Shown here piece after piece: positions 6,618 through 11,410 of a DNA stretch of 33,572 bases. Under the pieces are notes generated by a model that worked only from the letters and a program-made list of their open reading frames with translations, was not told the DNA's origin and did no database searches. Position 1 is the first letter of the stretch. Every line of letters starts with the position of its first letter. Source of the DNA: Desulfomonilaceae bacterium (lineage in GTDB: Bacteria; Desulfobacterota; Desulfomonilia; Desulfomonilales; Desulfomonilaceae); assembly GCA_031082285.1 (NCBI GenBank), contig JAVHLK010000015.1, positions 35,777-69,348 on the forward strand, in the 5' to 3' direction. The position numbers and the translations under genes were made by a program.

Positions 6618-9173
6618 ATGAGACTGCGTCATTTGCTGGTTCGTCCCGACCTTCCCGAAGAGCTGGAGATTCTCAAGACCATCGGGATGAATCTATGGTT
6701 CACGTGGAACCCTGAAGTGAGCCGCCTCTTTCAAGCTCTCGACCAGGATCTCTGGGACGAAACGGGCCACAATCCGATCTTGCTTCTTGCCAATCTCTCC
6801 GAACAGAGGAAGCGTGAGATCGTGCAAGACGTGGCGCTCATGGACCGGGTTCGAGAGGTGGAGCGTTCCTTTGACAAGTACATCATGGACCGGGGCGAAT
6901 ACAGTTTTAAGTTGGAAAGGCCCATCGACTACCGCATCGCGTACTTCAGCATGGAGTACGGTCTCGGTGAATGTCTTCCCATCTACTCGGGGGGGCTCGG
7001 CATACTTTCGGGCGATCACTTAAAGAGCGCGTCGAACCTCTCTCTTCCGCTCATCGGAATAGGCCTGCTTTATCAGAAAGGCTACTGCAGGCAATACTTG
7101 AATGTGGACGGGTGGCAGCAGGAATCATACCCGGAAAACGATTTCTACAATTTGCCGATTTCGCCTGTTCTCGACGGTACGGGAAAACAAGCGGAACTCG
7201 AGCTCATGCTGGGCAACCGGAACGTGAAGATCCTCATATGGAAGATTCAGGTGGGTCGGATCCCGCTGTACCTTCTGGACACGAACCATCGATCCAATAG
7301 CGATGAGGACAGGATGATCACCGCCGAATTGTACGGCGGCGACAACGAGATGCGGATCAAGCAGGAGATCATCTTGGGAATCGGGGGAGCGCGTGCGATT
7401 CATTTTCTCGGTTTTTGGCCCTTTGTCTACCACTTGAACGAGGGGCATGCGGCCTTTGCCGCGTTGGAGCGTGTGCGGCAAAACATGACCACCTATCGAG
7501 CCCCCTTCGATGTGGCCATGGAGTCGGTTGCCGCGTCGACCGTGTTTACCACTCATACCCCGGTACCTGCAGGAATCGATCTGTTTCCCCCGGATTTGGT
7601 ACGCAAGTACTTCACGGGATATATGGAATCGCTCGGTCTGAGCGTCAAGGACCTCCTTGCTCTTGGACGCGAGGACCCTCATGACGAATCGTCTCCCCTG
7701 TCTATGGCGGTATTGGCTTTGCGACTTTCACGAGGAGTCAACGCGGTGAGCGAACTCCACAGCAGAGAATCCAAGAAGATGTGGAGGAATATTTGGCACG
7801 ACGTGGAAGAGGAGGACATACCGATCGGGTACGTGACCAACGGCGTCCACATCCCGTCGTACGTATCCAAGGAGATGGCGGACCTCTTCGTGCGTTATTT
7901 GGGGGACGGATGGATAGAAGATCCGGACAATAAGAAGATTTGGTCGCGCATTCACAATATCCCTCACGACGAACTATGGACGGTCCATGAAACGCGGCGC
8001 GAGCGACTGGTCGCGTTCTGTCGCCGACGTCTTTTCAGACAAACCACGGCCGTCGGCGAGTCGATCCTTGATGCAATGCGCTTCCGAGAGTATCTCAACC
8101 CGGAGGCCCTGACGATCGGATTCGCCCGACGATTCGCTCCGTACAAGAGGGCCAACCTGCTGTTCCAAGACCCCGAAAGGCTTCTGCGGCTGGTTTCGGA
8201 CAAACGTCACCCCGTCCAATTCATATTCGCGGGCAAGGCACATCCGAAGGATCAGCTCGGCAAAGAGCTGATCAAGATGGTAGTGCACCAATCCCGCATG
8301 GAGGGCTTCCAACGTAAGCTCGTCTTTCTCGAGGACTACGACATAAACGTCGCCCGCTATCTCGTTCAAGGGGTGGACGTGTGGCTCAATACCCCGAGGC
8401 GTCCCATGGAAGCGTGCGGAACCTCCGGCATGAAAGCCGCGGCCAACGGCGTGCTCAATTTGAGCGTTCTTGACGGCTGGTGGCCGGAAGCGTACGACAC
8501 ATCCAACGGGTGGGCAATCGGCGGAGGTCGGGATTACGTCGACCAGGAGTACCAGGACAAGGTCGAGGCGGAAGAGACGTTTGACATCCTGGAAAAAGAG
8601 GTCATGCCGCTCTTTTTTGACCGGGGACCGGACGGGCTGCCCCACCGATGGATCGAGATGATGAAGAACAGCATGGCTTCCATCTGCGTACACTTCAATT
8701 CGCACCGGATGGTGGAGGAATACTTGGAGGACTACTACCTGACCGCGGGGCTCGCGCATCAAATCCTGGGGGAAAACCGGCTCGTACGTGCAAGGGCCCT
8801 GAGGGACTGGAAGCAGAAGGTCCGTTCCCTATGGAAGGACGTGAAGATTCTCGAGGTGTCTCTTCCCAGGGGAGACCGTGTCGCTCTTGGGGAGGACCTG
8901 GAAGTCACGGCTGCCATACGGCTCGGAGGACTTTCGGACCGCGAGGTGGTCGTGGATCTGTGTCACGGACCGGTCGGTCAAGACCCCGACAAGATAATTG
9001 ACAGACATACGACCGTCATGGCGAGCAACGGCGGCGGTTCGGACGGGGTGCTTCATTTCAAGGGCACCGTGCATTGTCAGGAGACGGGAGTGTATGCGTA
9101 CAGGATCCGCGTCCTGCCTTTCCATCCGTACCTCATGAATCCCCTGTCCATGAATCTGGTGGCGTGGGACTGA
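6618..9173 (+). CDS. glgP: Alpha-glucan phosphorylase (GT35)
   Basis: This 851-residue enzyme releases glucose-1-phosphate from glycogen or maltodextrin using pyridoxal phosphate and phosphate. It belongs to the shorter bacterial/archaeal branch that carries an N-terminal DUF3417 domain (about residues 1-110, with NLWFTWNPEVSRLFQALD). The catalytic core includes YFSMEYGLGECLPIYSGGLG, HLNEGHAAF, and the PLP site GTSGMKAAANG, where Lys606 forms the Schiff base. The C-terminal 100 residues form a beta-rich extension seen in this branch. GGAGG lies five bases before the ATG. It stands alone, with no other glycogen gene nearby. Confidence 0.93.
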   Translation: MRLRHLLVRPDLPEELEILKTIGMNLWFTWNPEVSRLFQALDQDLWDETGHNPILLLANLSEQRKREIVQDVALMDRVREVERSFDKYIMDRGEYSFKLERPIDYRIAYFSMEYGLGECLPIYSGGLGILSGDHLKSASNLSLPLIGIGLLYQKGYCRQYLNVDGWQQESYPENDFYNLPISPVLDGTGKQAELELMLGNRNVKILIWKIQVGRIPLYLLDTNHRSNSDEDRMITAELYGGDNEMRIKQEIILGIGGARAIHFLGFWPFVYHLNEGHAAFAALERVRQNMTTYRAPFDVAMESVAASTVFTTHTPVPAGIDLFPPDLVRKYFTGYMESLGLSVKDLLALGREDPHDESSPLSMAVLALRLSRGVNAVSELHSRESKKMWRNIWHDVEEEDIPIGYVTNGVHIPSYVSKEMADLFVRYLGDGWIEDPDNKKIWSRIHNIPHDELWTVHETRRERLVAFCRRRLFRQTTAVGESILDAMRFREYLNPEALTIGFARRFAPYKRANLLFQDPERLLRLVSDKRHPVQFIFAGKAHPKDQLGKELIKMVVHQSRMEGFQRKLVFLEDYDINVARYLVQGVDVWLNTPRRPMEACGTSGMKAAANGVLNLSVLDGWWPEAYDTSNGWAIGGGRDYVDQEYQDKVEAEETFDILEKEVMPLFFDRGPDGLPHRWIEMMKNSMASICVHFNSHRMVEEYLEDYYLTAGLAHQILGENRLVRARALRDWKQKVRSLWKDVKILEVSLPRGDRVALGEDLEVTAAIRLGGLSDREVVVDLCHGPVGQDPDKIIDRHTTVMASNGGGSDGVLHFKGTVHCQETGVYAYRIRVLPFHPYLMNPLSMNLVAWD

Positions 9174-9241: not shown

Positions 9242-9913
9242 TCAGGCGTCCCCGTCCAGGAGGTGAATGAACTTCTTCAACTCAATGAGGTTGTTTCGCG
9301 TGATTCTGGTGACCTGAAATCCCGCCAAGAATGTCCCGTTCGCCGAATCCGACCCGGTCCACCGACAGATTGCCTCAAACTCTATCGGCACCACCTCTCC
9401 GCATGGGTCCCCAAGGATCACGAGGTCCATTACGTCGTCGACCGAGGCTCCGAGTCCTTCCGTGCTTACCCCCATCAGCGTGATGTCGCGGACGTTGCCG
9501 TGCAATTCCGGATGGATCGCGTTGTAAATCGGCGCGTCGAAGTCGACGCGGTAACGGGAATAGTTGCGTGTGCTCCTTTCAGGCGAGTCGGTGCAGGGAA
9601 AGTAGAAATCGCCGAAGATCTCGTCCTCACTGACCGCGTTCACGTCCGCCAGGACGCTGAGGAGTTCCTCCAACGCTTCGGGCGTGAGAACGTACTTCTC
9701 GGTGAGGCGGGATCGGCTCATTCCCGAACGTATGTCCTCAACCATATCTTGGACCCGGATCTCGTCTGTGTGCCACGAATGTCCCCCCGGAGATGATAGT
9801 GAAGCCAGTATACCATCGTTTGTGTCGTAAAACGAAGATGAAAACTCGGCATCGATGTATGCGCGTTGACTAATTTGCGGGCGGCCGATTGTCACCGAAC
9901 GCATACGCCTCAT
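9242..9913 (-). CDS. PilZ-domain protein with N-terminal helix-turn-helix-like domain
   Basis: This 223-residue protein probably responds to cyclic di-GMP. The C-terminal half has the PilZ signature: RxxxR at 116-120 (RNYSR) and DITLMG at 143-148, a DxSxxG motif with Thr in place of Ser. Residues 53-97 (DIRSGMSRSRLTEKYVLTPEALEEL region) form a small helical module often found before PilZ in deltaproteobacteria, and it is shared with the protein at 21819-22226. The ATG at 9904 is an alternative start with GAGG close upstream. The gene converges on glgP and diverges from the small Cys-rich ORF. Its target process is unknown. Confidence 0.75.
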   Translation of the reverse strand: MRRMRSVTIGRPQISQRAYIDAEFSSSFYDTNDGILASLSSPGGHSWHTDEIRVQDMVEDIRSGMSRSRLTEKYVLTPEALEELLSVLADVNAVSEDEIFGDFYFPCTDSPERSTRNYSRYRVDFDAPIYNAIHPELHGNVRDITLMGVSTEGLGASVDDVMDLVILGDPCGEVVPIEFEAICRWTGSDSANGTFLAGFQVTRITRNNLIELKKFIHLLDGDA

Positions 9914-9945
9914 AGAAAATCGCGGTCGAACCGGCGGACGAGGTA

Positions 9946-9972
9946 TGGTATATTCTCCGAGATACGGAGAAT
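9946..9972 (+). promoter_or_regulatory. Extended -10 overlapped by a palindrome
   Basis: TGGTATATT at 9946-9954 reads as an extended -10 for the small ORF at 9988; no good -35 is seen. An 8-bp inverted repeat with a five-base spacer (attctccg at 9952-9959, cggagaat at 9965-9972) overlaps it and ends before the ribosome binding site. The layout would suit a repressor operator or a 5' hairpin. Confidence 0.4.
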
Positions 9973-9987
9973 GGTGCGGAGTGCATG

Positions 9988-10209
9988 ATGAAACAGATCG
10001 GCTTAATTCTGGGGCTGTCGGTTTGGTTGGTGATCAGCCCCGTTAGTGTTTCCTCCCAAAGCGACTGGATGGACGGCAAGGTCTATTGCTGCCTCCGTTC
10101 CTGCTCGTGAGTGAAAAAGAAACCGCAGTGCCGAAGGATCAAGGAGTCGGAGTGCCGGAGGCTCCGCGGTGAGGTGGTGGTCGACTGCCTCATGTGTGAG
10201 GAAAATTAG
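9988..10209 (+). CDS. Small exported Cys-rich protein with in-frame TGA
   Basis: The frame starts at 9988 (GGAG six bases upstream) and codes for a clear signal peptide (MKQIGLILGLSVWLVI, then a polar stretch), followed by WMDGKVYCCLRSCS. A TGA stands at codon 41 (10108-10110). The same frame then continues for 32 codons to TAG at 10207-10209 with six-to-eight-residue Cys spacing: PQC, SEC, VVDCLMC. The even Cys pattern on both sides suggests one protein. Options are a nonsense mutation (pseudogene), sequencing error, UGA readthrough, or selenocysteine. No convincing bacterial SECIS hairpin is visible right after the TGA; only a short stem near 10153-10165. If TGA is a true stop, the product is a 40-residue exported peptide. 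The family is unknown. Confidence 0.5.
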
Positions 10210-10258
10210 CGTGTGTATTTGTTACCTTGCTCGGTGGCATCCTTAGTCCGGGATTTCC

Positions 10259-10300
10259 TAAACCCCCATGATCGAGCGAGCACGAAGGACTATGAAAGTC
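10259..10300 (-). repeat. Dispersed repeat, copy B (inverted)
   Basis: The 16-bp and 9-bp blocks match 38-53 and 11-19 on the other strand. The adjoining cttag-N4-ggatttcctaa at 10242-10261 matches the left end of the inverted-repeat element at 6302, so two repeat types abut or belong to one larger family. Confidence 0.55.
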
Positions 10301-10581: not shown

Positions 10582-10776
10582 CTATGGCGCCTTCGTGATC
10601 TTGTTGGATCGAATGCAACGCGTACAGACTTTCGCTCTCTTCACCTGTCCGGTCGGTGCAAGAATACGGACTTTCTGCAGGTTGGGATACGAAATCTTCT
10701 TGGTTCGATTGTGGGCGTGGCTTACGTTGTATCCTCTCAACGGTCGCTTGCCGCATATTTCACACACTCGGGCCAT
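10582..10776 (-). CDS. rpmB: 50S ribosomal protein L28
   Basis: This 64-residue protein is L28 of the large ribosomal subunit. It begins [20 protein letters not shown], the usual L28 opening, and ends with [12 protein letters not shown]. The cysteine pairs at 5/8 and 51/54 mark the zinc-binding (C+) form. Length is normal for bacterial L28. AAGGAG lies nine bases upstream of the ATG. It is the last gene of a minus-strand run behind DUF1844 and the DnaJ-family gene. Confidence 0.96.
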
Positions 10777-10960: not shown

Positions 10961-11410
10961 TCATTTAGAAGCTTCCACGAAAGCCATTCTCAGCTGAAAC
11001 AACGTTTCTGACAAGACTTTTTTTTCCGCCTCGGTAAGATTCCCGCGGGTCTTCTCCTCCAACAAACTTATAAGGTCGATCGTCTGACGGGCCGCTTGAA
11101 GATCCTTCCTCGGTTCCTCTTCTTCGGAAAGCTTGATCAGCCCGAGCTGAAACAGCGCGGTATTGGCCATGCTGAGAATGAAGGTCGAGAAATCCAACGG
11201 GGGCGGGGGTTGTTGTTGCCGGTTGCCGGATTCCCGTTCGCTCTCCGAAGGCTTGCTCGCCTCGTCCACGGTCGAACCGAGAAGTTCTTCGACTCGTTGC
11301 TCCTTGTCCGATGGTGACTCGGCCTGCTCGTCCTCTCTCTTCTCTCCTCCCGTAGTGAATCTGCGCTTATCGGATACCTTGAACTCTTCTTTCCGTTCAG
11401 ACTCTTCCAT
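10961..11410 (-). CDS. DUF1844 domain protein
   Basis: This 149-residue protein has a charged, low-complexity N-terminal half (residues 1-70, rich in Glu, Lys, Ser, and a QQQPPPP run) and a conserved C-terminal DUF1844 domain. The domain reads DFSTFILSMANTALFQLGLI, then ARQTIDLISLLEEKTRGNLTEAE and ends LRMAFVE. The function is unknown; the first helix is hydrophobic and could bind a membrane or partner. GGGAG precedes the ATG by seven bases. In many deltaproteobacteria and related phyla it sits among housekeeping genes, as here beside rpmB and chaperone genes. Confidence 0.85.
   Translation of the reverse strand: MEESERKEEFKVSDKRRFTTGGEKREDEQAESPSDKEQRVEELLGSTVDEASKPSESERESGNRQQQPPPPLDFSTFILSMANTALFQLGLIKLSEEEEPRKDLQAARQTIDLISLLEEKTRGNLTEAEKKVLSETLFQLRMAFVEASK

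Follow-up and report, generated by a model that had tools for sequence, protein, structure and literature searches.

A small cysteine-rich frame on the forward strand of the DNA analysed here, a stretch of 33,572 nucleotides from a Desulfomonilaceae bacterium (hereafter the window), contains a TGA in its middle, which raises the question whether this codon ends the gene or is decoded, and as which residue. The translation of 9988-10209 reads MKQIGLILGLSVWLVISPVSVSSQSDWMDGKVYCCLRSCS, then the TGA at codon 41, then VKKKPQCRRIKESECRRLRGEVVVDCLMCEEN up to a terminal TAG at 10207-10209, so that translation confirms the TGA-interrupted frame reported in a preliminary description of the locus. The features of the region are the following.

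9978-9981, plus strand: Shine-Dalgarno-like GGAG, 6 nt 5' of ATG 9988, by reading of the sequence
9988-10209, plus strand: candidate selenoprotein gene, 73 codons (codon 41 being TGA) and TAG, from translation and orthologue alignment
9988-10056, plus strand: signal-peptide-like N-terminus (Lys, hydrophobic core, SVSS), by sequence reading only
10108-10110, plus strand: in-frame TGA, codon 41, in C-S-U; TGA in 12 of 14 orthologues and TGC in two
10111-10206, plus strand: conserved C-terminal half (PQC..SEC..GEVVVDCLMC), from the alignment, with dN well below dS in the tested pairs
10122-10170, plus strand: SECIS-like hairpin, basal stem ACCGC (10122-10126) with GCGGU (10166-10170), weak in the window sequence
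6618-9170, further upstream: carbohydrate phosphorylase, from the Pfam scan
9245-9913, minus strand: divergent 223-aa frame, no Pfam match at E 0.001
10585-10776, minus strand: ribosomal protein L28, downstream, from the Pfam scan
10964-11410, minus strand: DUF1844 protein, downstream, from the Pfam scan

A second possible start, ATG 9985, lies in frame with ATG 9988. The minus strand of 9988-10209, read in frame, contains a stop, and the other minus-strand ORFs over this interval are of 69 and 36 aa.

Orthologues across the TGA and selection on the second half

The two halves had been taken for a single cysteine-rich protein with a signal-like N-terminus, and the comparison of genomes bore this out. 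The 73-aa query, with X at codon 41, matched 13 further genomes of the same family among 99 genomes, at E 4.6e-9 or better; every match spanned codon 41, which places the two-part reading far beyond chance. The weaker rows of this search, down to E 1, were paralogues or noise. A search with the 14-row alignment A1, which read through stops, found the orthologue in 14 of the 18 genomes of the GTDB family, including that of the window. In G002, G006 and G010 we found Cys paralogues only and not the orthologue, and G001 gave no match at E 0.01. Completeness is 81-83% for G001, G002 and G010; G006 is listed as 100% complete, and the orthologue thus seems to be really absent there. In the phylum, six of 395 genomes matched at E 0.01. 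Four of these have the orthologue and belong to the family, one is G006 with its paralogue, and the last is G060, whose partial match (E 0.0018, 39 positions) does not resemble the family. Beyond the phylum, coverage consists of a one-pattern scan of 84,980 species, from which 10 relatives were kept out of 74 stretches; all are MAGs titled Desulfomonile, Syntrophaceae or Deltaproteobacteria and are very likely the same records as the family genomes. Plasmids searched by tblastn gave no convincing relative.

The preliminary description had placed the TGA where a Cys would fit and had proposed to look for Cys or Sec at codon 41 in homologues; the outcome was in favour of one gene, since the aligned codon is TGA or TGC and nothing else. 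Seven of the TGA orthologues belong to genus g5 and the other five to one genus each, six genera in total, and the two TGC (Cys) forms, in G005 and G012, are both from genus g6. Wholesale reassignment of TGA was ruled out, because the terminal stop of these 14 genes is TGA in 10 (TAG in three, TAA in one). L013 (G009:C432) reads S-G-U-C, without the Cys of C-x-U, and the partner Cys of the Sec may there be on the other side.

To measure selection, 12 of the 91 possible pairs were chosen and compared over the 30 codons that follow the TGA. Six pairs with finite dS above 0.5 gave dS of 0.52-1.79 and dN of 0.09-0.44, and three closer pairs gave dS of 0.10-0.22 and dN of 0-0.04; dS was saturated in the three others. 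Judged by these rates, the post-TGA half is under purifying selection. A downstream pseudogene was rejected, as the changes after the TGA are mostly silent in the 12 pairs.

The hairpin 3' of the TGA and the decoding of codon 41

Bacteria insert selenocysteine at UGA by means of SelB, tRNA-Sec and a hairpin directly 3' of the codon. No good hairpin had been seen after the TGA in the preliminary description, and for the window sequence taken alone this stands: its hairpin has no stability advantage over synonymous recodings, 886 of 2000 being as stable, and the best of 35 sub-windows reached 20.5%, none being lower. The comparison of orthologues, however, showed that the TGA forms have a common hairpin starting 11 nt after the TGA (14 nt in L012, with its insert of one codon). 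At fixed alignment columns, the stem GCCGC/GCGGC or a variant of it forms five of five pairs in 10 TGA orthologues and four of five in L010 and L012, whereas the Cys orthologues keep three and two of the five. Synonymous recodings reach an equal number of stem pairs with a chance of 0.05-0.19 per sequence, so the weight of the basal stem lies in its recurrence, among sequences that are related. In the window copy, this 5-bp stem alone is clear.

Two pairs join third codon positions and show two-sided change, 18-66 (GC in nine sequences, GU in two, AU in one) and 21-63 (GC in eight, AU in four). The AU pairs are silent in the window at 18-66 and in L004 and L005 at 21-63; in L006 and L010, the change in the 3' codon of pair 21-63 also alters the residue. 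For a longer hairpin modelled on L007, 77.2% of cells pair, a value as high in 2 of 500 shuffles; 4 of 500 shuffles reached its covariation score, and 27 of 500 had as many cells changed on both sides. The pairs with two-sided change (84/500) and the further pair types (353/500) were not above the shuffles.

The free energy of each sequence was then compared with 2000 GC3-matched synonymous recodings, seven of the 12 TGA sequences in these hairpin tests being from the one genus g5. Eight of the 12, from five of the six genera, beat 95% of the recodings (11 to 79 of 2000 as stable). For the other TGA sequences, 107 (L003), 179 (L006), 218 (L005) and, in the window, 886 of the 2000 recodings were as stable, against 1333 and 1607 for the Cys orthologues, which beat only 33% and 20%. 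The first 57 nt after the TGA of two selD genes were matched in stability by 12 and 24 of 1000 recodings.

For bSECIS elements, PMC13188914 gives constraints with an energy limit of -7.5 kcal/mol. In a rule-based scan, eight of the 12 TGA orthologues reached this limit; the window narrowly missed it at -7.2 kcal/mol, as did L002 (-7.1), L010 (-6.5) and L005 (-4.7) by more, and the Cys forms gave -1.6 and -1.7 kcal/mol. The scan is unspecific: for the TGA orthologues, between 4 and 40 of 60 recodings pass as well. At most 4 of 60 recodings matched the native bSECIS hairpin in seven of the 12 sequences, but 19 to 34 did so in the remaining five. Rfam returned tRNAs and one sub-threshold snoRNA row and no SECIS match, and the two selD controls match none either. 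Taken together, the sequence comparisons support a SECIS element for the family, the predicted element being weak in the window copy.

A search for the selenocysteine machinery, also proposed in the preliminary description, showed it to be present. In the window's genome, the only one in which tRNA-Sec was sought, we found a tRNA-Sec (71.4 bits, anticodon TCA), and SelA, SelB and SelD were all over the cut-off; the SelD of this genome has itself one in-frame TGA. Over the 18 family genomes, SelA and SelB were over the cut-off in 18 and SelD in 16. Second SelB-like matches over the cut-off were noted at G005:C1:3562952-3564838 and G012:C38:821-2707, that is in the two Cys-form genomes, of one genus.

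These data can be set against the other ways of reading the TGA. A sequencing error or a fresh nonsense mutation in the window's genome, both considered earlier, are excluded in practice by the identical TGA in 11 other genomes, of six genera when that of the window is counted, and their probability is negligible. If the TGA were a true stop, the product would be a 40-residue Cys-rich peptide and the downstream half a remnant or a chance frame. The standard table 11 does give a 41-aa ORF from ATG 9985, but the downstream half is conserved under purifying selection and holds four of the six Cys common to the uninterrupted paralogues described below, and we consider this reading very improbable. 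Programmed or leaky readthrough of the UGA by a near-cognate tRNA (Trp or other), without Sec, would likewise keep both halves under selection and would agree with the weak hairpin of the window. It is, however, hard to reconcile with a family in which the replacement of TGA is Cys, both Cys forms are without the hairpin and the Sec machinery is encoded; readthrough therefore appears improbable, if less so than a true stop. The selenocysteine reading is favoured by the hairpin of the TGA orthologues, absent from the Cys forms, together with the Sec machinery, and is further supported by the conserved UGA, the Cys replacement and the selection on the second half. Selenocysteine, which the preliminary description had not favoured, is thus the best supported reading, and the UGA at 10108 is, on this comparative evidence, very probably decoded as Sec.

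The protein, its paralogues and a possible redox function

Seven orthologues aligned with 15 paralogues share eight invariant positions: Cys 34, 35, 48, 56, 67 and 70, Gly 61 and Val 64 (window numbering). The members of the set are mini-proteins that begin with a signal-like N-terminus, most of them with six Cys, in the pattern CC...C...C...G.VV..C..C. The Cys-only paralogues of the same genomes thus resemble the window protein in their six Cys and signal-like N-terminus; they differ from it in having no in-frame stop and, mostly, in lacking the long loop between Cys2 and Cys3. This loop has 12 to 13 residues in the orthologues, with C-x-U or C-x-C (S-G-U in L013), whereas most paralogues have a short insert or none, in uninterrupted frames. 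The paralogue profile A5 gave seven matches in the window's genome, including this gene and a partial one on C107; the match on C307 has lost two of the six Cys. The same profile matched three of 297 phylum genomes, G000, G004 and, weakly, G118 (E 3.6e-4). One paralogue of the window's own genome, L046, carries C-T-C in place of C-S-U. Its coordinates are G000:C247:25775-25984, and selA (C247:16990-18345) is some 7.4 kb away.

A tree was built from 10 orthologues and 15 paralogues; it joined the Sec and Cys orthologues in one clade with support 99/99. The Cys pair stood within the Sec clade beside L013 with weak support (83/25), so that the tree does not fix the direction of the Sec/Cys change; L046 was placed outside the clade, on a branch so long that the position is unreliable. 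The AlphaFold2 model had a mean pLDDT of 68.7 and a pTM of 0.44, with pLDDT of 77-88 over residues 31-70. After two helices, of which the first is the signal, it shows a strand (31-36), a strand (47-52), a helix (53-58) and a strand (62-64), and the Sec is placed in the loop that joins the first two strands. Foldseek on the PDB with this model of mean pLDDT 68.7 returned 10 rows, the best at E 6.5, with no thioredoxin among them.

Sec adjacent to Cys is usually the sign of a redox site. We propose that the ribosome would make a 73-residue pre-protein in which tRNA-Sec, SelB and the downstream SECIS hairpin would put Sec at the UGA at 10108, and that the signal peptide would direct its export. 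The six conserved Cys probably form three disulfides that would hold the small scaffold, and the C-S-U in the loop after the first strand would probably form a reversible selenylsulfide. We give an extracytoplasmic thiol/selenol redox function about an even chance. The main alternative is that the C-S-U loop of the same selenoprotein binds a soft metal or a metalloid, mercury or arsenic for instance, and is not a redox couple. Dense thiols and a selenol in a small, probably exported protein would suit such a role, and the PMC13188914 table includes selenoproteins with a link to metals, among them MbdU and a putative mercuric transport protein. On the other side, the six scaffold Cys appear structural and are also found in paralogues that have no CxU loop, and a Pfam scan of four neighbouring genes in the window showed no metal gene. 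Binding of a metal or metalloid is possible, at a probability clearly below that of the redox role.

None of the 14 orthologues matched Pfam at E 0.1. NCBIfam gave two weak matches, of one member each (NF038029 lipoprotein, E 0.0065; NF040843, E 0.066), and the remaining orthologues had none at E 0.1. No chain of the PDB sequences matched at E up to 1, and the one paralogue scanned, L015, had no Pfam or NCBIfam match over the cut-off. PMC13188914 (2026) tabulates 119 prokaryotic selenoprotein families and subfamilies; judged by names and motifs, none of these is an exported mini-protein of this Cys pattern, and the CxU entries are a rhodanese form, a UshA-like one, ferredoxin-thioredoxin reductase and a thioredoxin-like one. 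By name, the closest entries in the table are the CC/Se motif (NF041239) and dual CXXC motif (NF041197) small proteins, small, Cys-bearing and without assigned role; however, a scan of the 14 orthologues against NCBIfam 20.0 at E 0.1 gave no match to either, in a release that may not hold both accessions. Mammalian SELENOF (Sep15), according to the abstract of PMC9304195, is an ER selenoprotein with Sec in CXU, in a secretory compartment as proposed here, but it has a thioredoxin-like domain, and the comparison concerns the way of working, with no sequence relation implied. We found no published account of the family in openly available main texts or profile libraries. This is probably a new, uncatalogued selenoprotein family of a well-known kind. 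As a whole, we lean slightly towards an exported, disulfide-held, non-thioredoxin selenium redox mini-protein, uncatalogued, with relatives that have multiplied in one anaerobe family and, in one genus, sulfur in place of selenium.

Annotation can readily miss such a family, because the standard table 11 stops the gene at the TGA and the conserved second half is lost. If the proposal is true, it adds a small, tractable selenoprotein, not thioredoxin-like in appearance, and a natural Sec/Cys pair on one scaffold with which to test what selenium buys in an exported protein. It would also put methods that predict bacterial SECIS elements to a demanding test, given that the hairpin of one well-supported member is weak.

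Genomic surroundings

The neighbourhoods of the window gene and 13 loci were compared over frames of at least 80 aa in flanks of 1.5 to 5 kb, some of them cut by contig ends. Some neighbours recur among the loci of genera g5 and g8, and one recurs at both g6 loci. No shared neighbour was found for the window or for the loci of G003, G008 and G009, and no partner was therefore inferred. Scans of 9880-10300 for promoters and terminators were negative. The divergent 223-aa frame begins 71 bases upstream of the alternative ATG 9985. The loci L002, L004, L008 and L009 (g5 and g8) have a tRNA gene on the strand opposite to the selenoprotein gene and roughly 200 bases upstream of it.
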